A stretch of 64,000 nt of DNA from Struthio camelus (taxonomy: Eukaryota > Chordata > Aves > Struthioniformes > Struthionidae). A model generated the notes under the pieces. That model saw only the letters and a program-made list of their open reading frames with translations. It was not told where the DNA came from and ran no database searches. Both the position numbers and the translations under genes were made by a program. Positions 21,201 to 48,339 of the stretch are shown piece by piece. Numbering within the stretch: position 1 is the stretch's first letter; each line of letters starts with the position of its first letter. Location: assembly GCF_040807025.1 (NCBI RefSeq), contig NC_090945.1, positions 78,778,088 to 78,842,087 of the forward strand. The letters run 5' to 3'.

Positions 21201-21286
21201 ACCCAGAGACCTGGCTGTCAAGCCAAGTGCCTTGTCCAACTTGCCGAGCCAAATTTTGCATTTTAGATGTTTGCATAATACGGTGA
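15219..21286 (+). CDS. TMEM129: TMEM129, ER-membrane RING-type E3 ubiquitin ligase
   Basis: Four coding exons: 15219-15423, 15892-16366, 19478-19637 and 21038-21286. All junctions are GT-AG with matching phases, giving 362 aa, the length of the human protein. TMEM129 is an ER-resident E3 ligase that works with Derlin-1 and UBE2J2 in ER-associated degradation; it is known for the removal of MHC class I driven by cytomegalovirus US11. Membrane segments can be seen at about 7-22 (FTLAYLVFAVCFVF), about 54-75 and about 93-112 (FFFFAVLLPAVTSALAYYW). Conserved blocks include ALPQSGW, EFRRIDKFATGAPGARV and LNSTEYGEL. The C terminus holds an atypical Cys-only RING: C285xxC288, C301, C309xxC312xC314, C319xxC322 and C346xxC349, then C354 and C359. 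The start is fixed by MESPAVTFTLAYLVF. It diverges from TACC3 and precedes the SLBP-like gene in the same direction. Confidence 0.97.
21038..21286 (+). CDS. TMEM129: TMEM129 terminal exon: C-terminal RING domain
   Basis: An 83-codon last coding exon, acceptor CTTTAG at 21032-21037, stop TGA 21284-21286. It contains the whole cysteine-only RING: CIGC, NCQE, ECQQCYCRPMWCLTC and PCPTCRAKFC. This domain binds the E2 enzyme and is on the cytosolic side in the known topology. All expected cysteines are present. Confidence 0.95.
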   Translation, partial: ELEPCIGCMQTNANIKLIKNCQEPNEGECQQCYCRPMWCLTCMGKWFASRQDQQHPETWLSSQVPCPTCRAKFCILDVCIIR

Positions 21287-25757: not shown

Positions 25758-28700
25758 ATGTTCCGCAGGCAGCGCGGGCCGCCGCGCCGCGCCGCGGGGC
25801 CGCACAGGTGGGAGCTGCGGCGGCGGCGGGAGGGAGGGAGAGAGAGAGGGAGCGCGGAGCGTCGTCGTTGCTTCCTCCGGGCGGGCGTGGGCGTGGGCGT
25901 GGAGGCGGGGGTGTGGCCCCGCTGCTCCCGGACGCCTGGGCCCCCTGCCGGTGGGGGAGGGGGGAAGGAGCCGCCTGCAGGCAAGAAACGTGACAGTATT
26001 GGCTTCTGTATCCAAAAGGCGTGATGTGGGGTTAGCGTTTTCCCTGCTAGCTCTTGAGAGAGCGCCGAAGGTGCCCGAGGGCCGGCGGGTGTCGCGTTGC
26101 TCTTTGCCGTCCGGCGGAGCGACCGCGGCCGGCCGTGGCGGGCAGAGCTGGGCTTTAACAGCCCAGCTGCTTGCCGCAAGCTCCCGCGTTAGCAGCGTCC
26201 TTTTGTTCAGGCGCGTGATCGGGGTTAGATTATTCATGCTGTGCACTAGCAACCGCCGGGGCTGCGGGAGCAGGAAACTCCCCGAGAGGCGCAAAGGCAG
26301 CGGAGGAGGAACGGGAAGGACACCCAGGCTGTTAATCCAGGATTAGAGAGACAGCAACCTGCCTTTCCTCCCACTCCTGTTGGCCTCAAAGAGCAGAGAG
26401 ACCTCGCAACTGCAAGGGTCCGGCTATCGCAGAGCAATGTATCTGTCGCGTGGGGTCCTCAGGAGAGTTTCACCCTCTCGGGGGGCGGTGGCTGACCGGC
26501 AGGTGCGGGCTCTACCTTAGAAGCCGGGTCTTGTGTTTAGTAAAAGCTGTAGGCGTTTTGTTTAATCACCTAACATCTAACAGAAATTAAGACACCAAAA
26601 GGGTTGGATAACTTCTCAGTTATTAAGTAATCCTTGACTGACCTTGCAGTATTTGCAAGTGCCCCACTCCTTCTCCCCTACGTACTTCTCCACAGAAGTC
26701 TCTGGTAAGGAATTTCTGGTCTAAAAGTGTTTCGCCTTGAACATTTGACCTACTTCTCTCCTGTTAGACACACTGTTTTCTGTGCTGAAGGAACCTTTCT
26801 CTATTTTTGCCTTTTTAAGAAGTTTAGTGCTGAATGGAATGGTGCATATGTACGTAAGCTAGTGCAGTGCTACTAGAGGACAGTGCATGGATGTTGCAGG
26901 TGTCAGCAGTTCCATAAACACTGTTGGAGGCCCTCAGCTGTTTTTTTCCCCCTTTTTTGATTGTGAATAGAGGAAAGGAGAATTTTTTTTTGTTAAGTGA
27001 AAGTTAGCAGATTAAATTCTGATGTCTTAATTGCAATAGTCAAACACCTTCTCTCAACTGTTGACCTGGCTAGCACCTGTACTAAGTTAGTGTTTCCTGA
27101 GTAAGCTGCTGTAAATCTATAAGGCAAACTGATCAGTTTTGTAATGACAAGTGATAATAGATAGGTTGTCATGTTTGTTTTGAGGAGGTGATGTTCAGTG
27201 ACTACCAACGAGTAGGCTGCGGGTGAGAATTATTATTTTGTAGTTTTGTACAACCTCCACACTGCTGGTTTCAAGAGTAGAAATGCAGAAACTGGAATGG
27301 TTCGGATTCTTTGGTGTTTGAGGAATATCCATCTAGACGTTTAGATCACTGGGTGGAGAGGTAAGGAATAAATATGAAGTTTGCTTAAATCTTCACTTTA
27401 CTGTGAGGTAAAATCTTCCTTGAGGAATCCAGCAACACTTTGAATACGATTAAAGGAAAATTTTGTAATAATATGGAGCATAGAGCTAGCAAATATCCTT
27501 CTTATGTAAGAGTAGACCATACAGTTTGGCTAGTTGAAATTCGTGTCATATAATTTGCAAATATTCCCTATGAAAGGGAGTAATTGTATATTGTATACTG
27601 AGGCAGCAATTAGAAACCCTTTGTTGCTAAAATCTGTATTAGTAGAAAATGTCCCTTGAAAAAATATGCTGGTAACTTTTCTGCGTTGTTGATGCATATT
27701 TATCTGTGTGTGGGCAAACCCTGATGTTTGCCTCTTCCTCTGTCAGTGTGCTCAGTCTGTTCAGCTGTATCACACTTTTTAGAAAAATACCCGTTTTCTT
27801 TGCAGTCCCGTACTGAGGACAACTGGAGATGAGATCAAATTTTATAGGTAGGTAGTTTTAAGAGTATTTTGCTTTTCTTTTGGATGTTCTAGAGTGCAGG
27901 CCTCAGGTAGAAGAAGTGCTGGAGCTCTAGAGATATCTTGATGTCTGGCAGGAAGTAAAAAACTGATGAGCGTTTGGATATTTGCAAACAACTGATCATA
28001 AGTTAGAGAAGATGATGAAATATATACATACAAAGTGCCCCCAGTAAAACATGTGTATATATACACACACACACACACACACACATATGATTTGTACATC
28101 TCTGAATATTACATTATATAAGGATTATAATCTCTGGTGGCCTCTTTGATATTGCTTCAGTTAATAACTGGATCTTTTGAAGAGGTTGAGAAAAATAATC
28201 TTGTATTCAGAAGGCGATCCTATGACTTTAAGGTTATAAAAAATATTAGAGCTATGTTATGACAGTAACTCAAACTAGGTGTGCTAGGAGCATTTTTTTG
28301 TTTCTTTTTTGCTGAATAGAGGTATTCCTGCTCTGTGTTGAATCTTTATGTTGTGTAGTATTAAAATAACATTAAGCAGCATTGATGGTAATTTCAGCTG
28401 TTGGTATGAAACATTTTATGTAGAGTAAGATTCTAAACTGGAACTACTGTATTATTTTACGTTAAATGTAGAGGCATTAACATCAAAAGAATTGGAATAA
28501 CTTTGTGGAAAGAAAGTTCTCACTGCTTCAAAGTACTACAGCATTATCCGCTTTTCATTAGTTAATGAGGAACCTGATGAGTTTCTCTTTACTCAGAATA
28601 TCAGTGATCCAGCTAGTTGTTAAAGTAGGAGCTTCCTGGCTCCATTTTTTGCTTTACACAACAGAGCATACATCCTTGACATTGTGTTTTGGGAAGGTAC

Positions 28701-31700
28701 GAAGTATTGCTGATGTCTGAGAGAATGTTAGTTCTGCTCATGAAATGGCACTTTTCTATTTCTTGAGCATCTCTACTGTCCTTTGCAACGTACTTTGCTC
28801 GTCACTGACAGCAGTGTTTAGACTGATTTTTGACCTCAAGTAACGTCATACACTGTGCTCTTTGACAGAACTGAGGTATTGGAAAAAATACTCAGCATAG
28901 CAGAGAGAAGCCTTCACGTTGGCTGAGCTGGGAATATTTATAGAGCCTATCAGCTCTGTGGCTATGATGCGAGGTTCACTTCGTGATTGTTTTCTTTCCC
29001 TGCAAGGTAAAACTGATTGTTGTCTCATGTCACTGCAGAAGGTGACTTAAGCTGAGATATTTTAATCTGTTTGACTGTACACTGAAATAAAAAAGGAGCA
29101 CTCCCATGGCCAGTTTTAGTATTATAGTTGCGGAGGGTACTAATTTGCTAGACTATACTATCTTGATTTGCAAAGCTGCGCTTGTCCACTGTTGAAGTTT
29201 CTGTCAGTTAAATAACAACCTGTGGGCAACAAATGTTCATATAGAGTTCTAATTATTTTCCAGCTCTACGGTATCAGAAGACTCGAAGCCTCTTTCAAGT
29301 TGTTCAGACTGGGGAAGTGGAATTGAAGAAGGCAAAATAATGAGGATATCAGATAAAGAAATGACAAAGTGAGTATTGCGTGATTATTAAGTGAGTGTCA
29401 TAACCATCTGATGATCTCCAACTACTTTACGTGCATTCATGAAGATTTGAAATGCCTTGGGCAGGAGGGAAGTGATTGTATCCGGAATCTTGGCCTCTCT
29501 CTCCATCATGCTCCGTATTTCTCACCGTTAAGTTGGGCAAACTGTTTCATATCAAGCCTGAAGGAAACATGAAGGAGAGAATAGCACAGAGAAGTTCTTC
29601 TCTTAAGAGCTATTTGTGTGATCATTTCAGATTCTCTTTCTTTTCAGGCTACATTGCATATTCATTGCAACTTTACCTGAAAGAAATACTGGACAGTGAA
29701 AGGAAAAATGAAAAGCGACGTTCTAGCCTTGGAGAGAGAAATGGCTATGAGATCATTCAAGCTAGCCTCCTTTATCTTATCCATCTCTGTTGTATTAAGT
29801 TTGGGGTTTTTTTTAAGTTTTTGTGTTTGCTTTTGTTTTTTTAATATTAGAAGGTTGTTGCACATATGCACGAATCATCTACCATTTTGTCTCCTGGTTA
29901 CAGAACTAGCCATAAACTTCTAGTAAGGCAGTTGTACTATTGGTACCCTCAGATGATAGTTGACTTAGTACAAACCTTAGCAATTACGTGAACTTGAAAA
30001 GCCTGCTCTGTTCTAGTGGGTCATTTGGTTAGCATCACCATCACCTCTGTGAGCAAGTCGCTACCGTCTATTAGAGTATATGTGGTTCTAGAGTATGTGT
30101 GTACATAACTTACTGTGAAGCTATTACCTTGATTCTAACTTTTATTTTTAAGTTCTGTTTCAAACAATTCCACCAATCCAGCGGAAAGGGAAACCGATGA
30201 GGTGGTTCTGAGGAGAAGGCAAAAACAGATCAACTTTGGAAAGAACACCCTTGCCTATGACAGATACATTAAAGAAGTTCCAAAGTAAGTTGCACTGTGC
30301 GTGGCAAGTTTTCAAGTAAACGCTTATTTGTTCCTGACGCGTGTAGGTCAGAGTATGGCTTTAGTTCTCTTAAAATAATAATGACAATAAATGAATAAAA
30401 CCTGAATCATAATTGTTTTTGTGAAAAGGAAGCCAGGGATTTTCTGCACTGGAGCAAGTTTAAAGCTAAACATAGCCCTTGACTACTCTTGTTGTCAGTA
30501 GCAAGCATGCTTTAAATAAATTCTTGATTAGTCAGCTCCCTGTGAAGTTTCTGGTCGTTGTGTTGCTAGACCAATATGGAGTTAATTGCTGTTGGGAAGT
30601 GACAGTTTTGAATGAGGATTGAATAAAGCTTTTCCTTTAACTATAGGTAAGGGCAACTAGTCTTCAGTGATTAATCAGTCACTGACTGAAATCAAACCCT
30701 GGATTTCTTCTGTTCTCTGTCATTCCACCTTGGGCTTCACACGGTCTGTGAATTGTAGCACTTACATTTGGTTTTTCAGTCAGCCCTCTCTGCTCGCTTC
30801 AGAATTATAAGGATTCAGAAACTACTCTGTAGAACATATGGATGTGCATCTGTGTTCTTAGTTTTGGATTTGAGGTTGACCTTTTTGTTTGTTTGTTTGT
30901 TTTTTAAGACTTAACTATTTATGGTTGTCTTACTTTCTCTGCATTTTACACTTAAGAGTCTGTTGTGAAAATTGTCTGCCAAGCGCAGTGGACACTACAA
31001 GCTAGTTGTTGAGCAAGGCTTAAGAGTAGCAGAGATGACTAAAAATCAACCACAGGTATTGTAAATGATTACAGATATTGCACAGTATTGTGATCACATC
31101 TTCAGGAACGCTCCCCCCCCCTCTCCCCACCCCAAAGAATCTGAGTGGCTCAATGGGACTTGTGAACTGGGTTTTTCCCCCCCCCCCCCCCCTTCGTCAT
31201 CAGTGTGGTAGGACTGCAGCCAGCCTTATGGTTATACCTGGCACTTCCATAGCTTGGCTATAATCAGCTAAATTGTAGGTGGAGAATAGGAAAAGATGAG
31301 AACAACATTCAGGAAAAAGCATGGGATAAACTAATTAAAAAAAAAAAAAACAAAGTTACTAGATGGTATTTTAACAGGATAGTTAATAATACTGTTCCTT
31401 AGCAGGGATCTATTTCTGTTACAAAAGAGTCAGTCAAACTGTTATGGCTTCGTATATTGGACTGTGAAGCTGGGAGGAAGAACACTTGAAAGTAACGTAC
31501 TTTGTATGAGTTAAAACATGATTATGATGTGTTCTTTCTTCCCAGGCATAAAAGCTGAGTACAGTATGGTATGGCTATAACCACGGGATTATTTTGTACT
31601 GCAGATATGATTTTAGTGAGGTCTCCAGTAATCTTTGGTTGGACAGGATCTGGATTTGAGATGCCATCCAAGAAATGTCACTTCCAGCCATTTGGTGATT

Positions 31701-34700
31701 CCAAACACCATTGTTACAGCATTTGCCCACTGCAGATTTAGTGAAAAGGCATACCACTTACTCAGTTGCTTGCATATTACCCAGAGGGTGTGGGTATGTT
31801 GTTTTTTAAATCTATACTCCCAAGGGACAAATGCTGTTCAGAAGTGTATACGCCCCATTGTAACAAATCGTGAACAACTGTAAAAGAAAAATTCACAGAA
31901 GATATTAAATGCGAAGAAACTGTCCCTGACTCAGGAAATCTGAGACAGAAATAGTTGGAGGCAGGGAGAGTACTGAAGGAATATCCCGTATGCTGCTTCT
32001 GTTTCCTATTTGTCCTTAGGCATTAGACATCTGCTTTTGGCAGCTGTCAGGCTGCTGGGCTGGATGGACCTCTGCTCAGACTCAGTGTGTTATTGTTAGT
32101 TGTTGCTCATGTGAATTGTTTTGTTTTTGACAATGTTTTAGAATATACCTATTTCAGTTAAGCTGTTAACATAGGAGTGTTTTGCCTCATAGTCCATTGA
32201 CGTTTGCTTAATCTGATGGGCTGAGGATTTTCTGGAAGAAAGAAAATCATGTCCTGAAATGTAAACGTTACTGGTTTTTTACAGGAATCAACGAATACCA
32301 GGAGTTCATCCTAGAACTCCCAACAAATTTAAGAAGTACAGCCGTAGATCCTGGGACCAGCAGATCAGGCTGTGGAAGATAGCGCTACATGCCTGGGATC
32401 CTCCTGAGGAAACCTGGGATCTGCAGCCAGTGTGTGTATGGGTGAATTAGTCAACGCTCATCTGTTGCTTCACAGCAGGGCTCTGAATTTCCTCTAGAGC
32501 ATTCCTTACTGGGAACAAGAGAGGGAATTGATCTCAGGCTCAGAAACGGGAGTCCCATTCAGTTTCCTCTAGCGCTTTGTTTCCCCCTTCGATTTCTGTT
32601 AGTATTCAAAATTTTCCTAATGTTTAGTCTAAATTCACTTCCAGTAAGGCACTTTGGGGAGGAAAGCGTGTGGTATGTCTGCAGTAGTACGTTCCCTTCC
32701 CTGTGTGTTTGCACTAGTCAACACAAGATAAAATTATTTTTCTAGGAAGGGATAGCAATAAGTGGAAACTTGTTGATTACTGTTCCTTGACCTTGATATC
32801 CTTTCCATCTTCCTTATAGTTAGACAGTGGATACTTCTTTCTGATGGCAGGAGAACCACCCTGCTCCTGTAATAATGATCTGTTGAGAGTCTGAAGTTTA
32901 AGATTGGAGAGATTTTCCATATTCTTCAAAAGACAGTGGCAACTGTTTTCAAGTTGGAGAAGCTTTTTTAATCTTTTAAGAACTTTGACTTTCTGTAACA
33001 GGGCTAGCTTCAATAATTAACACCTAATGTTTAACAAAGTTGGGAATAGTAAATTTGGAGGAGAAGAGTGAATGGAATTCTCTTAGCACTGTAACTCATG
33101 GTGTCAATAGCTTTAGTTGTGCTGTCCTCCATGGTGGAGGCTACAATTGTTTGCACCGTCTGGGTATTGTGTGAGATGAACTATTAACTACTGCAGCTTA
33201 ACTCTCTTCTGCTGGGAGTGATGAGCTAGAGGGACAGTATTTCAAATCTTGATTTTTCTCTTTTAGTAGTACAGAACCTTCAGGCAGTTCCCAAGAATGG
33301 GTCTACAGAGATCAGGATGACTCTGGCTACCCAGTATTTGATGAAAAGCAGAGTAGAAGTGGATATGAAGATCAATACAAAGAGACAGACTATGCGTCAG
33401 AGAGGTATGAAATAAAGTTTTGTGACTAGTTAATTGCGATAATTCAATGCACGTTACTGTTACCATTTTTTTGTGGGAACTGTTTAATGAGGGGGCAATT
33501 ATTGCTCTGTCTCCCCGTTTGGCGCTTACACTGTTGAATGTCATCCATCCCTGGTACAAGGCATTGAAAGTGGAAAAAGTACCAGCATTACAGATCTGCA
33601 TGATTAACAGTAGAAAAAGGAGCCGTTCTTTCTGCTTGTCTGTTTATACAGTGGAGTACTGAGGTGTCTTTAACCAAAGATGACAAATCCTGAAAGTAGG
33701 ATGTCTTCTTCAGAAGCAAGACTGACAGTCCTAAACTGAGTGGTCTCTCTGCGTGCAGAACAGCATGGAGAGTTTACAGTGAAGCATCTCATGCAGTTCT
33801 GTCTACCGAGATGTCTTGATCTCAGCTATGCATGTGGGGCTGGAAATGGCTCTGCATCCAAGCTCAGTGGAGTCTCACTGGCAATTATCACTTGATTCAG
33901 TTTTCAGAATACAGTCAAGAGGTTACAAAATCTGAGCCGTTTTCTTAGGTGTTCCTCTTGCTGTAGCTTGTGTGTCTTACTTCAGGGAGAAAACTCTTCT
34001 TCTGTTGCACGTGTCCTTGCTTTGCAGAACTGTGATATGAGTTTAAACACAGATGATGGGGGGAAAAATGCTTTCTTTGTAAAATCCTTGTCTTATTTTT
34101 GCAGTCCCTGTTCTCCCGATTCTTCTCCAGTATGGAAACGCAGAAAACGAAATAATCCTGACTCCTCTGCAGTCTCAAAGGGCAAAAACCATTATGTGCC
34201 TACGTACCACGCACTGGAAGGGTATGAAATGATTCTCTTTTTGGAGAGCCATACGCATTATGAACTGGCTTTTGGAATATTACTGAAATTGACCCCCTCT
34301 CCCTCTCCGCTATTTGTTAACAGCTTTAATTTAGTCTAAACATACTTGCATTCTAATGAGGAAAGGAAATCATGCCAGAATAACCATGGTGATAAGTATT
34401 TGCAAAGGTGAAGAAAATCTATTGTCAGAAGACGCAGCACAGCTTATTTTAGGGCAGATGCTTAATTCTACATACAAAAAAAAAAATCCAACATCAATGT
34501 CTTATCCTCGATTTCTAATGGAACCTCGTTTCTCCTTCAGAGCTTGTAACTATGACAGAGCCAAAACAATTTCATAATTATTTCACATAAGAATTTTGAG
34601 GTACTTGTAGCACTTTGAAACACCTCTTACATGCACTGTATTCTGCCTTTTGGCATGCAGAGTATATACAAGTGGATGAATGTCACGGTAAAGGAATAGA

Positions 34701-36480
34701 GCTCCACAAGAAAGCATGTGCACTCATCAGTCCATCAGTGAATACTGAAACTCACTGCCTGTTTAACTATTACCATTTTACATTTACTACAGATGTTACG
34801 GAAAATGTGTATTCATTAAGGGTTGTGAAGGGGAAATTTTGTGCGTTTTTGGCTACGCTTTTCCCTGCTTTACAGAAGGTGGCATGGGAAAAAATGCTTA
34901 TTGGAACAACGAAGTATAGGTCACCCATCTGGAACTGGGTCAAAGTGAGATCAATGACCAAAAATGGGAAGCAGAAGGGCTTTGAGATGTCAGAATGTTT
35001 CAGAGTTCTCAGGCTAACACCTTCTTTATTCAGAGTTGCTTAGGAATTACACTAATCTTCTAATTGTTTTTAATCATATTTCCTTATTTTTTTTTTTCCT
35101 TTTCCTAGCCACTGTATAAAAAGTTTTCTTGTAAATGGGAAATGATAGGCTGGCTATGTAACAGAGAGTACACTTTAACTGTGTATGTATAGTATCGCCA
35201 AAACCACAAAGAAAATTGGAACAATGGTTTAAGGTTTGTTGGGTTTAGTAGCCTTTTGTCAAGAACCTTATTAAAAATGTTTATACAGGTGTGCTATTTT
35301 TTTTCCTTCTCTTTACTTAGCTCCCATATTCTCAGAAGAAATAAAAGGAACAAAAAGCTCCATAGCTTTAGACCTTTTTCCTTTCTTTCTAGTCTTACTG
35401 AATCAGGACATCAGGAGGCTTTTTCAAGGTATTCAGAGTGGGGAACCTCAGGTGAAAATGATGAAATAATGACAGTACAATATGGTATAGAAGTAACAAG
35501 GTAAATACCATAATAATCTTTTTTTTATTGCTCATGCTGTGAAGCTGTCCTTGGCTTTTTTAAACATCCCTTTCCTTCACTGTTTTCTTTAATCCTACTT
35601 TTTTTTTTCCCCCCTCTCCTCCTTATACTTCCTGCAGCTTATGTTTTGTTTGGTTATTTTTGTTCCTTGACTTGGCTAGTGTCAATCTGACTCTCTTCTA
35701 TTCCTGCTGCTGCTGCTTCTGCTATTAGGTAGTCCTGCAAGATGCTGAGCTGCTTTCACCCTTTTTTTTCTCTTAGGGAAAGCTGTTGTTCCCAATGGTT
35801 GTTAATCGCCTCTTACTTGCTAAGCCTAGCACCTGAATACTTCTTGTCTTTGTCTCCTCAGAGATGAAGCTGTTTTGTAGCTGACTACAGAGGTGGTTAT
35901 TTGTTTTTATGCAGTGCCCAGGTTCCAGCCAGTTGTTCTTCAGGATGGAATGATCAGAAACAGAAAAATTCCAGGTTTCCGCATTATAGCACAACATGCG
36001 GAGACTCAGACTACAGGCTGGAGAGGTATAAAGAGCCTGTCCATCAGGGGCTTTTTTACATGTTAAGTTAGAGGTGTGTTATCTTACTGTTATATTTCAA
36101 GCCAATATTTTATTAGGAACATGTATCTCTACTACTCCTTTTAGGGATGTTTTGGGCAGTATTTTTTTTGTGGTAAAGCTTTGTCCTTAATGCTCTGTCC
36201 TTGCAAACCGTAGGCAGCATTATAAAAGGCAGTCTGTATTAAATAGCAGCTTGTAACTATATTCGGTATAAAAAGGTTACCATAATAAAGTCAACAACTT
36301 AGTAGTTTTGAATGGAAATAGAGATACAAAAGCGGAATATGTGGGTTTTTTTTGTTTTTTTTTAATATCTGTAGGCTTAAACTTTGCAGCAGTTTATTGG
36401 AAGGACGTCAGTCAGACTACCCTGAACGGGGATGGGGAAGTGCAGGTGTTGAAGATGAAATAATAAGGAAAAAAATCTAA
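25758..36480 (+). CDS. SLBP paralogue (SLBP2-like) with repeated-module C-terminal tail
   Basis: Model exons: 25758-25807, 27806-27847, 29264-29368, 30153-30284, 32285-32431, 33267-33404, 34105-34221, 35393-35500, 35915-36025, 36375-36480. All introns are phase 2 and the sum is 1056 nt, 351 aa plus TAA. Residues about 79-158 form the SLBP RNA-binding domain ([45 protein letters not shown]), which binds the histone mRNA 3' stem-loop. The TPNK motif, whose threonine is phosphorylated in SLBP, is present. Exon 1 has the same 50-bp length as exon 1 of canonical SLBP. Residue 46 onward, [13 protein letters not shown], corresponds to the SLIP1-binding motif. Missing are the TTP phosphodegron and SLBP exon 4. 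The tail (159-351) is made of modules resembling SLBP exons 2 and 3. The two genes lie in tandem, 5 kb apart. It could be the SLBP2 orthologue or a lineage-specific duplicate. The domain is sure; tail splicing is inferred from sites and phase. Confidence 0.85.
27806..27847 (+). CDS. 42-bp small exon of the SLBP-like gene
   Basis: Strong acceptor (TTTTCTTTGCAG) and donor (TATAG/GTAGGT) bracket 42 bp that are open in the phase-2 frame and encode [14 protein letters not shown]. It sits where canonical SLBP has its exon 2. It is in frame whether included or skipped, so it could be a cassette exon. Similarity to SLBP exon 2 is not evident. Confidence 0.6.
28063..28085. repeat. (AC)n microsatellite in the SLBP-like gene intron
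   Basis: About 11 AC dinucleotides flanked by alternating TA/TG runs (GTGTATATATAC), within the intron between 27847 and 29264. Confidence 0.9.
29264..29368 (+). CDS. SLBP-like module B1: N-terminal SLIP1-motif exon
   Basis: 105 bp, the same length and phase as SLBP exon 3 (44035-44139). It encodes [18 protein letters not shown], against [17 protein letters not shown] in SLBP. The DNA is also alike (TTCAGACTGGGGAA in both). The SLBP exon opens with FTTPEGP; here that part is STVSEDSK, so the cyclin/CK2-type TTP degron is absent. Confidence 0.88.
30153..30284 (+). CDS. SLBP-like RNA-binding domain, first half
   Basis: 132 bp, the same length as SLBP exon 5 (45005-45136). Encodes [20 protein letters not shown] and [12 protein letters not shown]. 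One visible change from SLBP is Y to F in QINFGKNT. Exon 4 of SLBP (the RRKLLINEF exon) has no intact equal before it; the phase-2 ends allow a direct join from 29368. Confidence 0.95.
31177..31192. repeat. Poly-C run of 16 in the SLBP-like gene intron
   Basis: A homopolymer of 16 C between a T-run and CTTCGTC. A shorter C run lies at about 31112-31120. The length may be affected by sequencing error. Confidence 0.85.
31950..32110 (+). mobile_element. Decayed CR1-like LINE 3' end
   Basis: The stretch TGGGCTGGATGGACCTCTG (from about 32057) followed by CTCAGACTCAGTGTG is close to the conserved CR1-family 3' end (GGCTAGATGGACC..GGTCTGACCCAGTGTGGC). Upstream text, TTTCCTATTTGTCCTTAGG and CATCTGCTTTTGGCAGCTGTCAGG, also fits CR1 3' sequence of birds and reptiles. 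It is short and old and sits in the intron between the two RNA-binding exons. Identified from memory of the family. Confidence 0.55.
32285..32431 (+). CDS. SLBP-like RNA-binding domain, second half
   Basis: Encodes [20 protein letters not shown] and [18 protein letters not shown]. The homologous SLBP exon (45847-45996) ends at GAA-AT/GTATGT; the aligned site here is CCA-GT/GTGTGT at 32431/32432, a weaker donor. If it is not used the frame stops at TAG 32448-32450 (ending VCVWVN), giving a short protein without the tail. A better-looking donor at 32441/32442 (TGG/GTGAAT) is in phase 0 and would break the frame with the next exon. Confidence 0.9.
33267..33404 (+). CDS. SLBP-like tail module A1
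   Basis: 138 bp, phase 2 to 2. Contains SSQEW, then [17 protein letters not shown] and a final DYASER. These line up loosely with SLBP exon 2 ([23 protein letters not shown]). The acceptor TTTTAGTAG offers two in-frame sites 3 bp apart. It is the first exon after the RNA-binding domain. Confidence 0.75.
34105..34221 (+). CDS. SLBP-like tail module A2
   Basis: 117 bp, phase 2 to 2, acceptor TATTTTTGCAG. Encodes [20 protein letters not shown] followed by [13 protein letters not shown]. The order W, basic cluster, DSSxV, N-aromatic-xP follows SLBP exon 2 ([22 protein letters not shown]). KRRKR is a possible nuclear localisation signal. Confidence 0.77.
35393..35500 (+). CDS. SLBP-like tail module B2 (SLIP1-motif-like)
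   Basis: 108 bp, phase 2 to 2, donor AACAAG/GTAAAT. Encodes [17 protein letters not shown], parallel to [17 protein letters not shown] of SLBP exon 3. The DNA block TTCAGAGTGGGGAAC almost copies TTCAGACTGGGGAAC in SLBP, which indicates exon duplication and not chance. Confidence 0.83.
35915..36025 (+). CDS. SLBP-like tail module A3
   Basis: 111 bp, phase 2 to 2, acceptor TTTTTATGCAG. Encodes [20 protein letters not shown] and ends DSDYRLER, matching the SDNRLDR end of SLBP exon 2. The donor (GAGAG/GTATAA) is like those of A1 and A2. Confidence 0.77.
36375..36480 (+). CDS. SLBP-like tail module B3, with stop codon before a relict donor
   Basis: Encodes [20 protein letters not shown] and ends KKI-TAA at 36478-36480. 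[13 protein letters not shown] is a third copy of the SLIP1-type motif. The frame after the stop reads ACT GCA AG then GTTAGT at 36489, at the place where the other B exons have their donor. The stop codon therefore appears to lie inside a once-complete B exon. A second in-frame acceptor (TTTGCAG, ends 36388) is possible. Confidence 0.8.
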
Positions 36481-36488
36481 ACTGCAAG

Positions 36489-39400
36489 GTTAGTTCATGG
36501 TGTCTACTTACTTTACATATTCTGTTTCAGTAGCCTATATGCGGTCTTGTTCAACAGCATCCAGCTGTTCAGTTTAAGTAGATCAGAGTTTCTCTCTTTA
36601 TTCCGCTACTTTATGATCAGTATTTTCTGTCATTTTCTTGTCTTTAATGCAGTACCTAATTAAAGGATGTAATACTTTTGACTTAGTAAATTTAAATGTT
36701 TATCTGTTCAGCCAGAAAGCATAAAATTTTTTATCTTAAAATACAATTAAATGTGGCTTTCTTGTTGAAAGCTATTCCAGGAGCAGCTTTTTTGCCTGTT
36801 TTGTGGTGAAATCACAACTTTGCATTTGCAGCCATAGAATTCAGTTAAAAATTTATTTTGGGCTCTAGACTCCTTTGCATTAATAGCATGGAAAATATCT
36901 CGAGTCAAACAGCCTTTATTAACAAAGGTGATCTTTTATGCGATTCAATTAAGTCTTTGTTGATCTCTTTGATGCAGACTCTGAAATGTTGTGCGTATGG
37001 TATACATGTCTTTTTAACAGTCATTTTGGAATATTTTTCATAATAAGGACAATGAAAAATTTGGCACAGAACTAGTATTGTACTAGCTAGGTTTTGTCGA
37101 ATTCTACTGTGAATACAATGAAAAAGCAGTTAGGACTTTACCAAAAATGTGTATTAATAGCAGTTTTTCTGCTGACTTCATTGATCCTATTTTAAACTAA
37201 ATTCTTTATTAATATGAATAAGACAGTATGGGTTATTGTTTTTTAAAGTGCTAATTCAATATTTGAAAATATCTAGTCTGTCTTTGTATATAGAAGTATC
37301 AGAGAAGAAAGACTTTCTCCTGTGATACAGTGATTTGAAGGATAGGGATATATTGTGGGTTCAGCAGAACAAGCCTTGGACGACTGATGCAGTCTCATAA
37401 CTTCTGCACTGAAAGAGGAAGAGATTTATCGTCAGCATGTGTATAATCAACACAAGGTGAAATGTGCAGGTAAAAGAAGCATGCTTCTGCATTGCTATTC
37501 GGAGAGCCTTTCTAGTCTTTTAGGTAGTGAACTGATATTTATCTGCTTTGCAGTCAGCTTTGTTCTATATAAGGTTCTAATAAAGAGTGTAAATGCTCAG
37601 TGGGTGCAATCACTCACTCTAATTGGAAAGCTATCTTTGTGACAAGTTGAATGTAGAGAGTGAATTTAATAGCTTCTCTGTGGAGCAAAGCATAGATTTC
37701 CTGGCATGCAAAGATCGGGGTTTAGAGAGAGGCAGTTCCTGTCCATTTTGTTTTCAGGTGTGACAAACTCTAATGCTCAAATGGCAAGAACTTTTTGACT
37801 TATCTGAGGAAACGGAATGTTGTTTGAAAACCAACTTGTGGATTCCGTGATGGAAACCCCCTGCCTGTTTGCTAAAAGAAAGTTGCTAATTGGATTCTTA
37901 GTCTCAGGCAGGAAAAAAGAAATTTGGCTGTTACATTCAGAATGATGAGACATTTCTCTGATTGCTTTTTAAGGGGAGGGGAGAAAAAATTAATAAGTAG
38001 AACACTTGTGATGTGACCAGAATTTGTTAATTGCAATTGAGAGAAAATGTGTTTTGGGCAGTATTTAGGTGAAGATGATGTAAGGGATTGGGAAAGGCTC
38101 AAATACTTCGATTTATCTTTGGCACATACTTTAACAACATCAGTTATGTAATGCTCTCATTTTGGCAGTAAGTTATGTTCTCAACATGTTCCTAATATCC
38201 ATAACACTTCCTGAAATATGGACAATTTAGCTTTGTCTTTTATACTGTGCTTTAAGTTCACCACTTGCAGTGCTCTCTTCCTTTTGCTATTCCTGTAACT
38301 CTGGCTTAAGACAGTAATGTGGGGGTTTTTTGCGGTTAATGATTACATATACTTATAAAAGGCTGTTGTGTCTACCTTTTTATTTAGGTTTCTCCAGAGC
38401 TTTAAGGATAGATCGGCTTCTGCAAGCTTTGCCTTGAACGTAAAACCTCAGGTTTCATTAAGCCTGGGGCTAAGATGATGGACGTTCCCTAAAGCTTTTG
38501 TGAGAATATTTCTGCTTTATCTGAGTTGGCAGATGCCATGTGCGTCATATTGTAAAGGCTACTTCAGTTTTTGGATCCTGCTGTTGCCTTTTGGAGATCG
38601 TGCTACTTACAGTGCACTAATGTTATGTTGGTGTATTGGTCCAATATTGAGTCAGTGCGAAGGATGCCACCTCTCAAACCACGGAGTTAAGCCCTTTTTC
38701 CTGTACTGGACCAGAATTATGTATTCAACCTGAAGAACTGCTTCAGAAGAATGTAGATAGTTCCACCCTTTCCTCCAGCTGTTGAAGACAAACTCCTTCT
38801 AATTTTGGATGGGATGTTCATCCAGTTGGTTTATTTTCCATTTTCAGATAATGTATATTAAGCTAGCATCTGTCTAATCCTGGTGAGACAAGAGAAAAGG
38901 AAAGGTTTATCAAAAGCAGCCCCCTCTCTTTGAGGGGATGAGTGACTTAACAGCAACACAGCTTAAATATCTGGATTTTACTCTTATGCCTGTTACAGCC
39001 TGCCCCAGAGAGCCAAGCTGCTGCTGAGAATAAGGAAGGATGAATTCAGTGGCTGCTGTTGCTACAGAAATAGAGGAAAGCAGCACTACTGGAGCAGGTA
39101 GCTGCTCTAGGGTATGGAGTGTCCTGGCTGAGGGCTACTATGGTCACCCTCATTTTATCTTTCTAGCATTGTGCTCAGATGCTCCAAGTGAGTGCTGTGG
39201 TTACAGTGGAGTTTAGACAAGATTCGTGTATTACAAGAAACTTTTACAGTCCTTATGATTTTGTTTGTTTTTTGTGTTTTCTGATGTAGACTGTACTAAA
39301 ATACAAATGTATTGGGAAATGTTAGCATTGGGAATTCTCATTGCGTTAGTGTAGCTTTGGCATTGCTGCACCTTGTCTCCTTGCAAGACCACTGCAGAAA

Positions 39401-41427: not shown

Positions 41428-44400
41428 ATGTCCTTCCGCCAGAGGAGCCCCCACGGCGGCACCGGCACCAGCCGCAGGTAGGGCCCCCCCCTTCCCCCTC
41501 TACCCGAGCGGCGCGGTGGCGGCCGTTGGGGCTCTGCGGCTCTTTCCTCGCCCCCCTCGCTGTAGCGGCGGGGGCAGAGAGGCGGCGAGGCGCCCCGGGG
41601 AGCGGGGGTCGCCCGCCTGGGGCGGGGCCGTGCCGACCTCGCGCGCCCGGCCGTTAACGGGCGTCGCGCGCCGGTGCGCGGCCGTTAACGGGCGTCGCGC
41701 GCCGGTGCGCGGCCGTTAACGGGCGTCGCGCGCCGGTGCGCGGCCGTTAACGGGCGTCGCGCGCCGGTGCGCGGCCGCCATGTTCGGCCCTGCCCGCGGC
41801 GCCGCGCGCTGCCCCCTGGAGCTTTCCGCGGGGCCTGAGGGGCAGCAAAGCCGGGCCGGGCCGGGCTGCTGCGGGCCAGGTTGTGGGGGGCGTTAACGGT
41901 TTCCCCTTTTGTAGAGCCCGAAAGCCAAAAGCTGCGGCGGTAGCACGGAGCCCGGTTTGTTGAAGTAAAGCTGGTGAATAAAATATGATGTCTGTATGCG
42001 ATGTTGTTTCAAAGATTACAAAAAGCTTACTATTGCGTGTTGTCTTTACTTCGCCTGCTGCCAGCCCGCAGCCTCCACCTCGCTGGTCCCAAGGAAGGAA
42101 ACGTGGAGCAGATGGAAAACGGAGAAAGCAGAATGAATTAGATTCGTCTGTTTTTGATGAAAATGAATATAGGCCTTCTGACAACAGGCTGGACAGGTAG
42201 GTGATGCTTGCGTGGCATGTAAGTACTAGAAACAAGTCCGTCCTCTTTTTCTTCATCAGAAGAAGGTGTCAAGTTAATCAATTTAGTGGTGCTTAGTTCC
42301 TGTTCTTAGTTTGTGCCTAGTTTTTTCAAGTCCTGTGCTTTTGTACATCATTTGTAGATGTTAAATAGCTGATTTTAAGGAGGGAAAATAATCTAGCCTA
42401 GTGTTCTTATCTGGAGCCCCTTGTTATCAAGAATAAGTAAAAGTATTTTTCATTTTTATGTCTTGCATTATATTATTCATCACTTTCTATCCTATTCTAT
42501 GCTTGTTTATTGCTATTTATCATGAGCCCCTATCATAGAAGCTGAGTCATACAACCAGAAGTCAATCTGTGAGACTTAAGCCTTGTTTTCCTGCTCCTCT
42601 GACGGGGTTTAATCACCCTTTGCAATCCTAGCGGAGCAGCAGATGCTCCCAGCAGATACTGGGCCCAGCCCAGCCTTCTATCCAAGTGTGAACTGGTACA
42701 TGGGGATGAGGGTCTGGAAAGAGACAGTTAAGTTGAGCTGGGTCTGGATGGTACCAGGGTTGTCACAGAGCAAAATAATCAAGAGGAAGCTATAGATCCT
42801 CTCACGTTCCCCCTATTCCCTATATACACAGCACAGGTACAGAAACAAACATGTACAAAAGGGTATGACAGACTGTTGAGGAAAAAGCTGAGGTTGTGGG
42901 ACTAACCAAGTACTTTGGGATGCTTCTGCCAATAATGCATACTTTTTGACCGTGGGAAATCGGAATATAGTCTGCGTTCTCAGCCAAGTTAGAGGTCATT
43001 GCAAGCAAACGCTGGAAATCCTTGTAGTTTGAATAGATATTTGCAAAGCGACCTGTGCTGTATTTTTCTTTATTTGTCCTCTCCACATAAAGAGGACTTA
43101 CAATTTGAATTTAACAAAAACGTGAAAGTAGTAATGCAAGCCTATTTCTGGTCTGGGAGCAGGGAAGGATTTGGAGCAGGTTTCAGTTCAGATGTGACTT
43201 AAACGGATTCCCTGACTTAAAAGGACTTTTCTGGGCAGAATCCTAGTAACTCTCCAGAGTACTTCTAAATCTACTGAAAAAGCTCTAGTTTGTAGGTTAC
43301 GGTTTTGAGTTTGTACTTTGAGAAAATCAGTCGTCAGGAGGACAAGAAACTAAGCTGAAACACATATTTAATAATCTGAAATTAGGCAGCTGTTGTTAGC
43401 TGGAAGGGGATATAAGCTCTTCCCTCTGCCCCCAACAACAGCTTGAATCTGCTTATGATACTAATGTGCTGCAATAAAGACAGTTGTTAAGTATCTGCTG
43501 GCAAGGTCAGAGCAAATCTCAGTTTGCAGCCTAAAAACTGAACTTCATTTTTAGTGCATTTGCCTGTTCTTCAAATTATCTTTTTATATGGGAAAGTCCT
43601 GGTGCTATCACATAGCTTTATCTCCTTAGCTGTATAACTTAATTCTGTGTTCTAAGTTTTGTCACTTTACTGGGTCTGCAATCGTGAAAGGGTAAATAAG
43701 GGAGTAAATGAGTTACGATGGTATTTCATGTATTTTTTTCTGAAGGAAAACAGCTACAATATGGAAAATGCTGTAGGCTAGGTTACTTGCTACGTTGGTA
43801 CCTTTCTACACATCTGTATGTAAACTTAAACACCCTACCCTCTCCAAGCCCAAAGGGAGACCCTGCAATGAGGTTTAAGTTTAAAATGGTTACGTTTTAA
43901 AAGAATTACACAAGATTCTTACAACTAAGACTGCTGTAAATGAGTATGTGAAATAACTATTAAGCTGAAAATGGAGGGGAACGTGGGGAAAAAAAACTTA
44001 AAATAAAATTTTAACGTAGAGGCTCTCTTCTCAGTTTTACAACACCGGAAGGCCCTGGACCCCTTTCACGGTGTTCAGACTGGGGAACTGCAGTGGAAGA
44101 AGATGAAATGAGGACCAGTGTTAACAAAGAAATCGCAAGGTACCATGGGTGTTTAAGACAAAGTAGGAAAGGGAGGGGAAACGGTACTAGTCTTGCAGAA
44201 TCTGTATTGACTTGCATTTTAACTTCATAATTGTAGTAAAGTCGGAGACTAATGTAGGCCTGACAGCCCCATATAGTAAGTCCTGCTTTTAGGCCAGCTT
44301 TGGCTGGCCCACTAGGAGTCATATAGGAGTGACATTTTAAAACTCTCCAAAGGTTGTGCTGTATATTACTGAATGTCCCCCTTTTGGAAGAATCCTATTC

Positions 44401-47400
44401 TAAATCTCTTAGATTGAGTTACTGTGAGTGTCATTTCACTGATTGCTGTTCTTGTGTATAGCTACTATAACAAGAATTTTAGGGAGAAGACTTGGGAAAA
44501 GTAAATTTTGAGAGTTATGGAATAGATCTTTCAGTTTTTCCCTAAATGGAAAGATATTTATAGTTTGTGCGTTGACTTCAAGGTTATTGCTTAACTGAGA
44601 AGTGAAATAAACTGTGAGCTTGGGGGAGGGGGAATCTTATATTTGCTTTGTATATAATATTAACAGTATTGCTTTGAACTCTTACAGGTATAGAAGAAAA
44701 CTCCTGATAAATGAATTTTCAAGAGAAAGAAAGTCCTCCTCTGGAAGGTAAGATAAATTTCTGTCTTAGTTGAGGGAAATCCTGACGATAGGTCTCAATC
44801 TCACATGTGCCCTGTTGCTTCTGAAAACCCTCAGCTTGAAATAGTTCATCCTAAGTCTGCTCTAACATGTTAATTCAATTCAATAAGAACGTTATCAACT
44901 GCTTTTTAAAAAAAAGTTAACTTTTCAGCATCTATGTATGTTTTTGTCTTTGACGATCTTTGGTTTTCTAATACTCCCAAATCTACACTTTTTTTTCCCT
45001 CTAGTTCTGATTCAAAGGAATCCACTGTAACAGTAGAACTTGAGACAGATGAAGTGGTTTTGATGAGAAGACAAAAGCAGATAAACTATGGAAAAAACAC
45101 AATTGCATATGATAGATACATTAAAGAAGTTCCTAGGTAAGGTTTTTGAATTTCTGGAAAACTGTAAATATACAAATATGCCATACCTGTTCTTTATAAG
45201 CATGTTAACAGACTAAGCTTGGTACCTGAGGTATATTCAAATGAAAGGCATCTGCAAACGTGATTTTTCTGAGACATTTCTTCCCCACACCACCCCCCCA
45301 AGATGATTGAAACTAATGATATTATGTAACTTGACTTGGATTTTTTTTTTTTCCCTGACTGCTCTGTGCATGAGGAATGTCACTTAGAACTTTCTCATGT
45401 TGCCGAAATGAAAGTGAAAGCTGTTTTGGTTGTAGTTGTGGCAGTCAACTAGAAGAAATGAAACTGTATTTTTCACAGGCAGTTTTCTCCCTTCCTAAAC
45501 TGAAAGGCAAAACAGAGCCTCGTTGCTCTTAAGTTTGACAGGTATATTATTATATGCAGAAACTGCATGCTGAAATTTTCAGACTTAAGATTGATAGTCC
45601 ATTTTTATTTAAACTACCCAAAGATGGAAAATCTAAAATGTGAATATATAGATGATAACCTTTCACTTCGGGGCTGGAATTGTACCACTTGTGGAGTTTT
45701 TTCTCTAAGTGATTATGTTACTTATTTCAGAATGTGTTGGGCTGTAATCAGGCTATGTAGCAGGCAACCAGTCTTAGAATTTAAAGCTATTTGACATGTC
45801 TGTGTGAAAAGCATTAATGAATTTTTCATGTCTAATATGTGGCTAGGTGCCATCGTATACCAGGAGTTCATCCCAGAACTCCAAATAAATTTAAGAAGTA
45901 CAGCCGTAGGTCATGGGACCAGCAAATTAAACTATGGAAAGTTGCGTTGCATTCCTGGGATCCACCTGCTGAGGAAGGATGTGATCTACAAGAAATGTAT
46001 GTATTGAGTATTCAAGATACCTTTAAAGAAACTAATATATACAATCTTAGGCTTGAGGGGGGAGGGGTTAAAAAAAAAAAAAAAAGACAGCCCTTTTGGA
46101 GACCAGTCAGTGATCACTGAATGCTTTCCCTAGCTGCTTGCCTACACTGAGCGCTCTCTGGAGCTATTCATTTCTTTTGCGGACAAAATATGTATTGACT
46201 GACTTTTGAGTTTTTTGGATCTAGTTGGTGGGACTGGACTTAGCTAGTGTCCATGCAAGGACATGGCTGTATGTCCCTCATTTCTTTAGTGGATTTCCAC
46301 AGCGTGAAATCAGAGAACCTGCTGCAGTGCTCTCTAAAAGGAAGCACCACACCTGCAGGGCAGGCTAGTCCTTTCAGAACAGTCTGCAGACTAATTCTAG
46401 AGGAACAAAAGTGACTTGTGGTAGCAGCAGTGCTGAGGAGTTTGCCTGACGGACTTGCAGATCTCATGAATATTGAGCTCAGAACACAGCGTACAGGAAC
46501 ATGCCTTATACTTTTCTCTTTTGTTAGTTCAAGAACGGGGTATAAGTTTCTTGTTCCCTGAGCAGAGGGGAGGAAAGAAGGACTAGTAAAATCACCTCAG
46601 GGTCGCATTAAATTAAAAACATCGCTATGAGAATTCACAGTCCAGGCTAGTGTGATCTTTTACTCTAGAAGATTCAGAAGAATGTGACTTGTTCCTTTCA
46701 TCTGTAGGAACTAAAACTGATCAAGGAGCTTGCAAGATAAAATAAACTGGAACTAACCGAACGAAGGGAGAGATGTAACTGATTTTCCAAGAAAAAGAAA
46801 TATTTTTGTTGCTAAGGTTTTCTTTTCTAATGAGGACAATGATAAAAATCAGTATGCAGCAATGTGATCTAAAAACAAAGGGTTAATTTGGTTTGCTTTT
46901 TACTTGCAATTGACATGAAAGGAGTTAGTTGGTATTTTAGCTTGAAGCCTACTGTGTGTACTGTACGTTGCTGTTGAAACTATCCCTAGATGCTGGGATC
47001 TGGTTGTGTGTATGATGGCTGTTAAATTTTACATTGGAAAACAAATTAGTGTCATCTCAGGGGAAAAAAAAACTCCTTGTTCTTTCCATGTTTGCCCTCT
47101 GTATTGAGGCATTGCTTGAACGTTGGATATTTGTGTTCAGCAAGCTGTAGTATTCAGTCTCAAGACTTAGTCTTTGTGTGTTTTTGACTGTGTTAATTAA
47201 CTTGCTATTCTGTTTGGTCTCAGCAACTTGCCACCCTTGTCCCTACAATCTCTGTAGGTCTCTCTGTGCTTGTTCTGGCACCACTTCTAGAATTGCACCC
47301 ACAAAATGCAATAAGCTTACTGTGAGAAAACTGAATTTGTTCTAAGCGATATACTTTTGAATTATTTTACAGTACTCCTGTTGATCTTGGTGAGATGGAG

Positions 47401-48339
47401 ACAGAATCTATAGGAAGCCATTCTACTGAATCTCAAACGAGTTCTCAAGATAACGATGTAAGAATATCTGTCACTTGCATAATTTTTTTTTTAATCAGTC
47501 CATTACTTATAATTGTATCCAGAGTAGCCTGAATACATTAGAGCCTCTGTGAGCTGCCAGGTGTAGATGGAGACTGTTTATAAAGCGGAGTGATTTCAAG
47601 TCACAGGGGAACTCACAGAAATATTTTCCAGCTATAGCCAATTTTTGTTTGTAGTCCAAGTTCAGAGAGAACTTAAGTGATCGGCTGAGATGACAGATAC
47701 CTCATTCTTCATGGCCTACGAAAGAGAAAGCATCTGTTTGTTTAAAGCATGCCACTTGTGACCTGCAGTGTACAGAAGAAGTACTTCTTTTTAAGATTGT
47801 GATATCGAATGTTAAAACAGGACATAATTGGTGTAACTGTCATGGCACACTGTGACTTGTTGAAGTAAGCTATTTTTATATCCAGGAAGTGTTTTTCAGA
47901 GCTGGGCAGTAAACTTCCATAAAGATTCAGTAATGTTTTTCTTAATGAATTTCTTTCTCTGAATATTGAATCTGTATAATATTGCAGTGTCTGAATACAT
48001 AGATCCTTTGAACATAGTAAACAAATCTTTGAAAGTGTTTGGATGGGCAGAGAAGCCTTCATTTAAATTCTTCAATCTTATACTAGTCTTGTTTTTTTTC
48101 TGTGTTAAAGTGTTTGTAAGCCTCTGTTACAGGGTAGGCTAAATGAATTACAGAAGTGAAATATGTTATCGCATAACTAAGTTGCACTTGATGACTAATT
48201 GCTCACTGACTTTGTATTCCAGGACACTTATTCTGGCACTCCCACAAAAGTCAGACATGTCAACTATCAAACAGAAGATGAATTTGACTTGGAAGCGTGT
48301 TTGAGTGAGCCGCTTAAAGATCTCAATACTATGAGTTAA
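41428..48339 (+). CDS. SLBP: SLBP, histone mRNA stem-loop binding protein
   Basis: Eight coding exons: 41428-41477, 42065-42196, 44035-44139, 44688-44747, 45005-45136, 45847-45996, 47373-47457 and 48223-48339. All are GT-AG with matching phases; 831 nt gives 276 aa (human 270). SLBP binds the 3' stem-loop of replication-dependent histone mRNAs and drives their 3' processing, export and translation. Landmarks: [17 protein letters not shown] (basic, exon 2); FTTPEGP (62-68), the phosphodegron for destruction at S/G2; [13 protein letters not shown] (75-87), the SLIP1-binding motif; [10 protein letters not shown] (exon 4), with the basic RxL cyclin-docking type motif; RNA-binding domain about 129-200 with [25 protein letters not shown] (T171), [18 protein letters not shown]; and the C terminus [18 protein letters not shown]. 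Identity with human SLBP is high throughout, so this is the canonical orthologue. Confidence 0.98.
41649..41776. repeat. 31-bp tandem repeat (4 copies) in SLBP intron 1
   Basis: Four near-identical 31-bp units start at 41649, 41680, 41711 and 41742 and a partial unit follows. Each holds the 10-bp palindrome CCGTTAACGG, then GCGTCGCGCGCCGGTGCGC. AACGG is the core of a MYB site, present on both strands of the palindrome. Related GTAACGGCCG words occur in the TMEM129 promoter. Confidence 0.95.
44035..44139 (+). CDS. SLBP: SLBP exon 3: degron and SLIP1-binding motif
   Basis: 105 bp, phase 2 to 2. Holds both FTTPEGP, whose TTP is phosphorylated to trigger degradation, and [12 protein letters not shown], required for translation activation through SLIP1. 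It is the parent-like form of the B modules in the neighbouring paralogue. Confidence 0.95.
45005..45996 (+). CDS. SLBP: SLBP exons 5-6: RNA-binding domain
   Basis: Exons 45005-45136 and 45847-45996 encode the roughly 73-residue RNA-binding domain found only in SLBP proteins. Key conserved residues are visible: [30 protein letters not shown], and ALHSWDPP. The domain recognises the stem and its flanks at the histone mRNA 3' end. The acceptor before exon 6 (TGTGGCTAG) has a weak pyrimidine tract. Confidence 0.96.

Follow-up and report, generated by a model that had tools for sequence, protein, structure and literature searches.

The ostrich (Struthio camelus) carries a second SLBP gene whose product has a long C-terminal tail built from copies of SLBP exons. 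We analysed a window of 64,000 nucleotides (NC_090945.1, positions 78,778,088 to 78,842,087, forward strand; coordinates below are those of the window) in which the order of genes on the + strand is TMEM129, this SLBP paralogue (25758-36480) and canonical SLBP (41428-48339). Behind its RNA-binding domain the paralogue has five modules in the order A1-A2-B2-A3-B3, the A modules being of the exon 2 type and the B modules of the exon 3 type. We propose that the paralogue is a tandem SLBP gene of archosaurs (birds and crocodilians), that its tail represents the fused remnants of further SLBP copies, and that its product would serve as a stable, multivalent adaptor; we give this reading a probability of about 0.7. 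A preliminary description, made from the sequence alone, had proposed the five-module tail. The tail is real: its exons are open and in frame, and the protein they encode is annotated in ostrich.

The RNA-binding domain is encoded by two exons (30153-30284 and 32285-32431), which correspond to canonical exons 5 and 6. Ahead of it lie A0, the paralogue's own exon-2-type module (27244-27360; bird A0 profile, E 1.2e-18), and B1, an exon-3-type module (29264-29368). A stretch at 25758-25807 is the putative first exon, to judge from its frame, its donor (CAG/GTGGGA) and its likeness to the starts of other bird proteins; it contains an ATG within a CpG-rich stretch and, like canonical exon 1, is 50 bp long. 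For canonical exon 4, the ostrich paralogue yielded no counterpart. The tail exons are A1 (33267-33404), A2 (34105-34221, with the basic patch WKRRKR), B2 (35393-35500), A3 (35915-36025) and B3 (36375-36480, with the stop codon TAA at 36478-36480). All five are open and have AG acceptors, and GT donors follow A1, A2, B2 and A3. Every internal junction of the paralogue is phase 2, and the tail joins in frame to the second RNA-binding exon, whose donor is weak (AGT/GTGTGT) yet stands at the homologous place, where canonical exon 6 ends. All tail exons had been described as running from phase 2 to phase 2, which holds for A1, A2, B2 and A3 and not for B3, the terminal coding exon. Spliced from B1 to B3, the ostrich exons encode 321 residues; from the methionine in B1 onward there is one mismatch in 295 residues to the annotated ostrich protein P0001 (LOC104151346), which is also the top database match of the paralogue, identical across 92% of the query.

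The tail modules are related to two particular SLBP exons. Profiles were made for each module from 25-30 bird rows and 2-3 crocodilian rows (there is no crocodilian B2); those of the canonical SLBP exons drew on 7 vertebrate proteins, or on 4 in the case of exon 4. The two sets were compared by profile alignment with 1000 column shuffles. Against canonical exon 2, z in birds and crocodilians, respectively, was 6.1 and 4.4 for A0, 4.0 and 2.9 for A1, 5.9 and 7.0 for A2, and 1.5 and 6.5 for A3, the last of which was recognised through its crocodilian counterpart. Against canonical exon 3, the corresponding values were 13.4 and 11.3 for B1 and 4.1 and 12.9 for B3, with 7.7 for B2 in birds only. 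The bird scores were reached by none of the 1000 shuffles for B2 and A2, by one for B3 and by four for A1, and the crocodilian A3 score by none. Scores against other exons were all at z 2.5 or below, so that the homology is exon-specific. The relationship can also be seen in the DNA, as the preliminary description had noted for B2 (its quoted stretch, TTCAGAnTGGGGAAC, is present): ostrich B2 and ostrich exon 3 align without gaps over 52 bp with 41 identities (0/1000 shuffles), B3 and exon 3 align over 29 bp (0/1000), and the scores of A0, A1 and A3 against exon 2 were reached by 3, 6 and 2 of 1000 shuffles. When single peptides were searched against the window, B2 was found (E 0.013 and 0.0087) and A1, A2, A3 and B3 were marginal, like chance matches elsewhere; with the A3 peptide, a chance site at 11353-11448 outscored every true relative (E 0.04). 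A pooled A profile found A2 (E 0.00045) and A1 (E 0.089) and missed A3. As judged by these comparisons, the A modules of the tail derive from SLBP exon 2 and the B modules from exon 3, A1 and bird A3 being the weakest assignments. This agrees with the derivation given in the preliminary description, and annotated proteins confirm that the modules are kept behind the RNA-binding domain across birds.

Homologues were drawn from the best 120 of 654 matches in a search with the paralogue and the best 120 of 832 in a second search, which yielded canonical SLBP rows. Among the matches listed, annotations of the paralogue occur in many bird species and also in alligators and gavial, whose versions have no B2. 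The ostrich protein is 75% identical to chicken LOC422901 over 100% of the query and 57% identical to the protein of Alligator mississippiensis over 98%. A paralogue-type domain is present in 93 of the 218 proteins compared, all within the first 96 rows of the 120 matches listed; these rows are birds or crocodilians by name, save a frog protein (P0089, outside the 93) plus P0020 and P0022. The A2 signature occurs in 83 of the 93 paralogue rows and in none of 108 other SLBPs, and 17 rows matched neither pattern. All of the R2, A1, A2, B2, A3 and B3 patterns were found together in 27 of the 96 rows, a count that reflects the partial length of many other rows and regular expressions that are loose in both directions. 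The paralogue is likely missing from turtles, squamates and mammals, judged among the matches listed. Searching with the gavial tail gave three proteins, all crocodilian and one of them from gavial itself, with none from turtles or lizards; as birds too were missed by the word filter, this is weak evidence of absence.

Several annotated models depart from the common layout. Some predicted isoforms skip modules in frame, as phase-2 cassettes permit: A3 is skipped in guineafowl (P0031) and grouse (P0037), A2 in goose (P0043) and an RNA-binding exon in another goose model (P0044). In Cyanistes caeruleus (P0003), B2-A3 modules stand both ahead of and behind the RNA-binding domain, perhaps through an extra tandem copy or an assembly error. 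Owl and bustard models (P0005, P0007, P0009 and P0019) carry the name TM129 isoforms, suggesting read-through from, or mis-fusion with, the upstream TMEM129.

The RNA-binding domain of the paralogue is, by its sequence, intact, near-invariant and SLBP-like. The PF15247 match reaches 103 bits, where the cut-off is 27, and spans positions 1-70 of 70. A 78-residue RNA-binding stretch is identical to that of ostrich in seven of eight birds, with 77/78 in the eighth (P0030), and the 72-residue stretch used for tree building is the same in ostrich and gavial. The tail, with 133 of 188 residues identical between ostrich and chicken, is less constrained. Particular positions within it are nonetheless kept: among 30 bird rows, the tail tryptophans are present in 28 (A1), 30 (A2), 28 (B2), 28 (A3) and 29 (B3), and WKRR of A2 is present in all 30. 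In a simulation of neutral change at 0.3 substitutions per site, the expected identity was 0.53 and the frame stayed open in 0 of 400 runs; at 0.15 substitutions per site, these values were 0.72 and 11 of 400. Neutral divergence between ostrich and chicken is nearer 0.3, the usual figure being about twice 0.15 or more. The absence of stops in annotated proteins says nothing in this regard, since such proteins are open by construction.

Splicing of the tail to the RNA-binding exons, as the preliminary description had proposed, is indicated both by annotated proteins and by short contigs labelled 'lgn'. Two chicken-like 'lgn' proteins read without interruption from within B1 through to B3, and their contigs are no longer than 3176 and 1690 bp. 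The ostrich B1-B3 exons are spread across approximately 7 kb, so that the introns must be gone from these contigs, and we therefore read the 'lgn' rows as spliced RNA assemblies. Canonical SLBP rows with the same label (P0132, P0134, P0174 and P0175) each cover the full protein within a contig of 1490-1848 bp. The label would thus appear to denote an assembly of sequencing reads, supporting splicing of the tail.

Crocodilian proteins suggest how the tail arose. Past B3 in gavial (P0082) and past A3 in Chinese alligator (P0088), the protein continues into 46 residues (SIKEEGLPS...SWDQRIKPWKTNL...) that match canonical exon 6 only (z 10.7, 0/1000 shuffles). Gavial B3 ends in KEIAR, as canonical exon 3 does, and scores 69 against ostrich exon 3 and 70 against turtle exon 3, compared to 38 against gavial B1 and 63 against ostrich B1. 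Because of this exon-6-like end and these scores, we consider that one or more additional SLBP copies contributed to the tail their 5' exons and an RNA-binding exon that has since decayed. If A1, A2-B2 and A3-B3 are counted as separate blocks, it is likely that two or three copies were fused. The 3' end differs in Mississippi alligator (P0079), in which B3 is kept and followed by approximately 60 residues unlike SLBP (NLGRQIWTPRIP...). In birds the protein is shorter: the ostrich frame ends inside B3 at KKI-stop, and most bird proteins compared stop after KK and one further residue. By its sequence and by comparison with gavial P0082, the segment 36481-36488 would be the rest of the old B3 exon. 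It is followed by a GT donor at 36489 (AAG/GTTAGT), 8 bases past the stop and at the old phase-2 place where gavial B3 joins the next piece.

We envisage the following order of events. A tandem array of SLBP genes would have formed first, and read-through splicing would then have joined the RNA-binding exons of the paralogue to the exon-2-type and exon-3-type exons of the SLBP copies that followed. The later copies would have lost their RNA-binding exons, leaving serial A and B modules in a probably disordered tail, and the bird line would subsequently have gained the stop in B3. The AlphaFold model of the paralogue has a mean pLDDT of 44.9 and shows the tail without secondary structure, which is consistent with disorder and informs on nothing further.

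Several observations weigh against parts of this interpretation. Bird A3 by itself fails the exon 2 profile test (z 1.5, 85/1000 shuffles), crocodilian A1 scores nearly equally on exon 2 (2.9) and exon 3 (2.5), and A2 fails against exon 2 on DNA alone (90/1000). The tail identity of 71% fits a neutral divergence of approximately 0.15, a value which, if it applied to birds, would imply weak overall constraint. The tryptophan is missing from B1 and from A3 in 3/3 crocodilian proteins, and B2 is absent from the three; thus the partner-type sites are not all ancestral, and the number of usable sites varies by lineage. The support from 'lgn' contigs depends on how their label is interpreted. In the ostrich window, a profile search found no remnant of exon 4, 5, 6, 7 or 8 among or behind the modules, and downstream of B3 the matches to RNA-binding exons were at chance level alone (37356-37391 and 37573-37605; E 0.7-0.8, in the wrong order). 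Finally, ostrich A0, a module that the preliminary description did not name, carries an in-frame TAG (27278-27280), and the annotated ostrich protein P0001 begins at a methionine inside B1.

The lack of exon 4 to 8 remnants in ostrich would be expected if exons 2 and 3 alone had been copied in pairs to the 3' side by duplication within the gene, without further gene copies. This was the origin put forward in the preliminary description, and the alternation of A and B modules and their common phase 2, which eases exon insertion, are in keeping with it. We think it unlikely, and have replaced it with fusion of tandem copies, because the gavial and Chinese alligator tails run into an exon-6-like piece and gavial B3 retains the KEIAR end and resembles the exon 3 of ostrich and turtle far more than gavial B1 (though its score against ostrich B1 is 63). 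One could instead suppose that the tail is an annotation artefact, in which exons of dead SLBP copies have been strung onto a live paralogue in species after species. Models at this locus are indeed sometimes fused with neighbours, as in the TM129 names in owls and bustard and the fusion with canonical SLBP in Hirundo (P0052), and annotated proteins would be open in any case. Such an artefact is highly improbable given the unbroken proteins on short 'lgn' contigs, the tail tryptophans that 28 to 30 of the 30 bird rows retain, and the open tail frames of the ostrich genome itself, which a neutral tail would seldom have.

The stop in A0 raises the prospect that the ostrich gene itself is decaying, with TAG blocking the full protein and the rest drifting. 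This position reads Q in chicken and most other birds compared and is a gap in the rest, and the start of the annotated protein within B1 points the same way. With A0 included, the ostrich frame ends at codon 29; with A0 skipped, it is open from exon 1 to B3 and encodes 337 residues. A0 is also missing from all four palaeognath models, namely Struthio (P0001), Apteryx (P0002), Rhea (P0004) and Nothoprocta (P0039). The tail is kept to B3 in P0001 and P0002, the B3 end is changed in P0004, and P0039 is annotated only to B2. A0 may have been lost in palaeognaths, of which the DNA was seen for ostrich alone. As the remainder of the ostrich gene is open and its RNA-binding stretch unchanged, we regard decay of the whole gene as somewhat unlikely. 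A different proposal is that the paralogue represents SLBP2 in birds; in frog, fish and cow, SLBP2 is an oocyte-specific paralogue that serves in storage. In favour of this, the gene is an additional SLBP that lacks the canonical C-terminus while its RNA-binding domain is intact. Ostrich has a third SLBP-family RNA-binding domain elsewhere, encoded by two exons on the minus strand of contig C13 (308220-308766); exons resembling CDC25 and CtBP lie no more than approximately 10 kb away. No exon-2, exon-3, A0 or B1 module better than E 0.27 was found near it on its strand within 30 kb (approximately 21 kb of it upstream). In a tree built from the 72-residue domain (35 rows, 19 distinct), which is poorly resolved, the C13 domain is divergent, with an end branch of 0.57-0.63, and lies far from the paralogues, which form one group (92/87) among SLBP rows without a resolved placement; the tree has no starred branch, so the duplication cannot be dated by it. 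The C13 gene is presumably SLBP2. SLBP2 is described, in the parts of the literature cited, as an oocyte-type protein without the translation-activation region (PMC7179931, PMC7226043), and the fish slbp2 gene as adjoining zmat2 (PMC7255616). The paralogue, by contrast, is in tandem with SLBP and has B1, B2 and B3, of which B1 retains that translation-activation region. That it is SLBP2 under another name is thus very improbable indeed, and we return to an archosaur paralogue with a tail of fused SLBP remnants as the preferred reading.

Motifs lost and gained by the paralogue suggest what it may do. The exon-3-type translation/SLIP1 region with its tryptophan is present in ostrich B1. The cyclin-docking motif [KR]RKL is found in 0/93 paralogue rows compared to 96/108 other SLBPs. 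TTPE, the TTP phospho-degron, is found in 9/93 (one of them the fused P0052) compared to 102/108, and is absent in ostrich. The C-terminal GTPTK of exons 7-8 is found in 1/93, again the fused Hirundo protein, compared to 85/108. Altogether, a single RNA-binding domain is combined in the paralogue with up to three exon-3-type sites and up to four exon-2-type sites. Passages of PMC3764509 assign to SLBP exon 3 a region required for translation and for contacts with SLIP1, CTIF, eIF3 and PAIP1, in which CTIF depends on Trp75; the Thr-Thr-Pro site for degradation is placed in the same exon. A nuclear-import element is assigned there to exon 2, and the cyclin-docking KRKL to exon 4. According to part of PMC12775136, deletion of human SLBP residues 21-58, stated to equal exon 2, weakens UPF1 binding.

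By analogy, the paralogue would bind the 3' stem-loop of histone mRNA as SLBP does. Its exon-3-type sites would dock partners of the SLIP1/CTIF/eIF3/PAIP1 type, the diverged B2 and B3 being putative sites, and its exon-2-type sites would provide nuclear-import and UPF1-type contacts. With no cyclin-docking site and, in most cases, no TTP phospho-degron, the protein is expected to escape degradation as S phase ends. A stable multivalent adaptor for histone mRNA is thus its probable role. Such a protein, which also lacks the SLBP C-terminus, would be suited to the storage or translation of histone mRNA apart from the normal cycle; the egg is one example, although the site of expression is a guess. 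More tentatively still, we suggest that freedom from destruction at the end of S phase might allow this archosaur fusion protein to set the translation or storage of histone mRNA outside the cell cycle, as in a large yolky egg. A search of the ostrich genome for MIF4G domains gave 20 matches, none assigned to SLIP1 or CTIF. The relevant part of PMC9570461 reports chicken SLBP (chromosome 4) as oocyte-enriched and does not mention the paralogue.

The preliminary description knew of no described SLBP with this architecture. No published description of the archosaur SLBP paralogue was found in the open-licence PMC literature, and in this sense the claim stands; the protein itself is already in databases, under the names 'uncharacterized protein' or 'histone RNA hairpin-binding protein-like'. 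To our knowledge, no vertebrate SLBP gene has been described beyond SLBP and SLBP2. If our interpretation is correct, the paralogue would be a natural experiment showing how translation, storage and decay of histone mRNA depend on the number of exon-2 and exon-3 sites. It would likewise be a clear example of tandem genes fusing into a protein of repeated modules, with an intermediate, the decayed RNA-binding exon, kept in crocodilians.

Elsewhere in the window, the last exon of TMEM129 (21038-21283, + strand) encodes part of the Pfam Tmpp129 domain. Canonical SLBP, the parent-type gene, has 8 exons and lies in tandem downstream of the paralogue. The GC-rich stretch between its exons 1 and 2 contains a perfect 31-bp tandem repeat of 4.2 copies (41648-41777).

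Of the known systems that resemble the paralogue, canonical SLBP (PF15247) shares with it a two-exon RNA-binding domain, preceding exon-2 and exon-3 modules, phase-2 junctions, strand and tandem position. The paralogue differs in having no exon 4 (KRKL), mostly no TTPE and no exons 7-8, and in its additional A/B tail. With SLBP2 of Xenopus, zebrafish and cow it has in common that it is a second SLBP with a conserved RNA-binding domain and divergent flanks; the locus is another one, and the translation-activation region that SLBP2 is described as lacking is kept and multiplied in the paralogue. Fusion of tandem SLBP genes may have occurred elsewhere. The frog protein P0089 (Phyllobates terribilis, SLBP isoform X2) has two consecutive RNA-binding domains, perhaps from a separate tandem fusion. 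Like the paralogue, it is a predicted protein that fuses parts of tandem SLBP genes, but what is repeated there is the RNA-binding domain and C-terminus rather than exons 2-3. HBP/SLBP splice variants without exon 2 or exon 3, as described in part of PMC3764509, offer a further parallel: in these variants too, exons 2 and 3 behave as in-frame cassettes whose number alters the behaviour of SLBP. The modules are lost there by splicing, whereas in the paralogue they would have been added by gene duplication.

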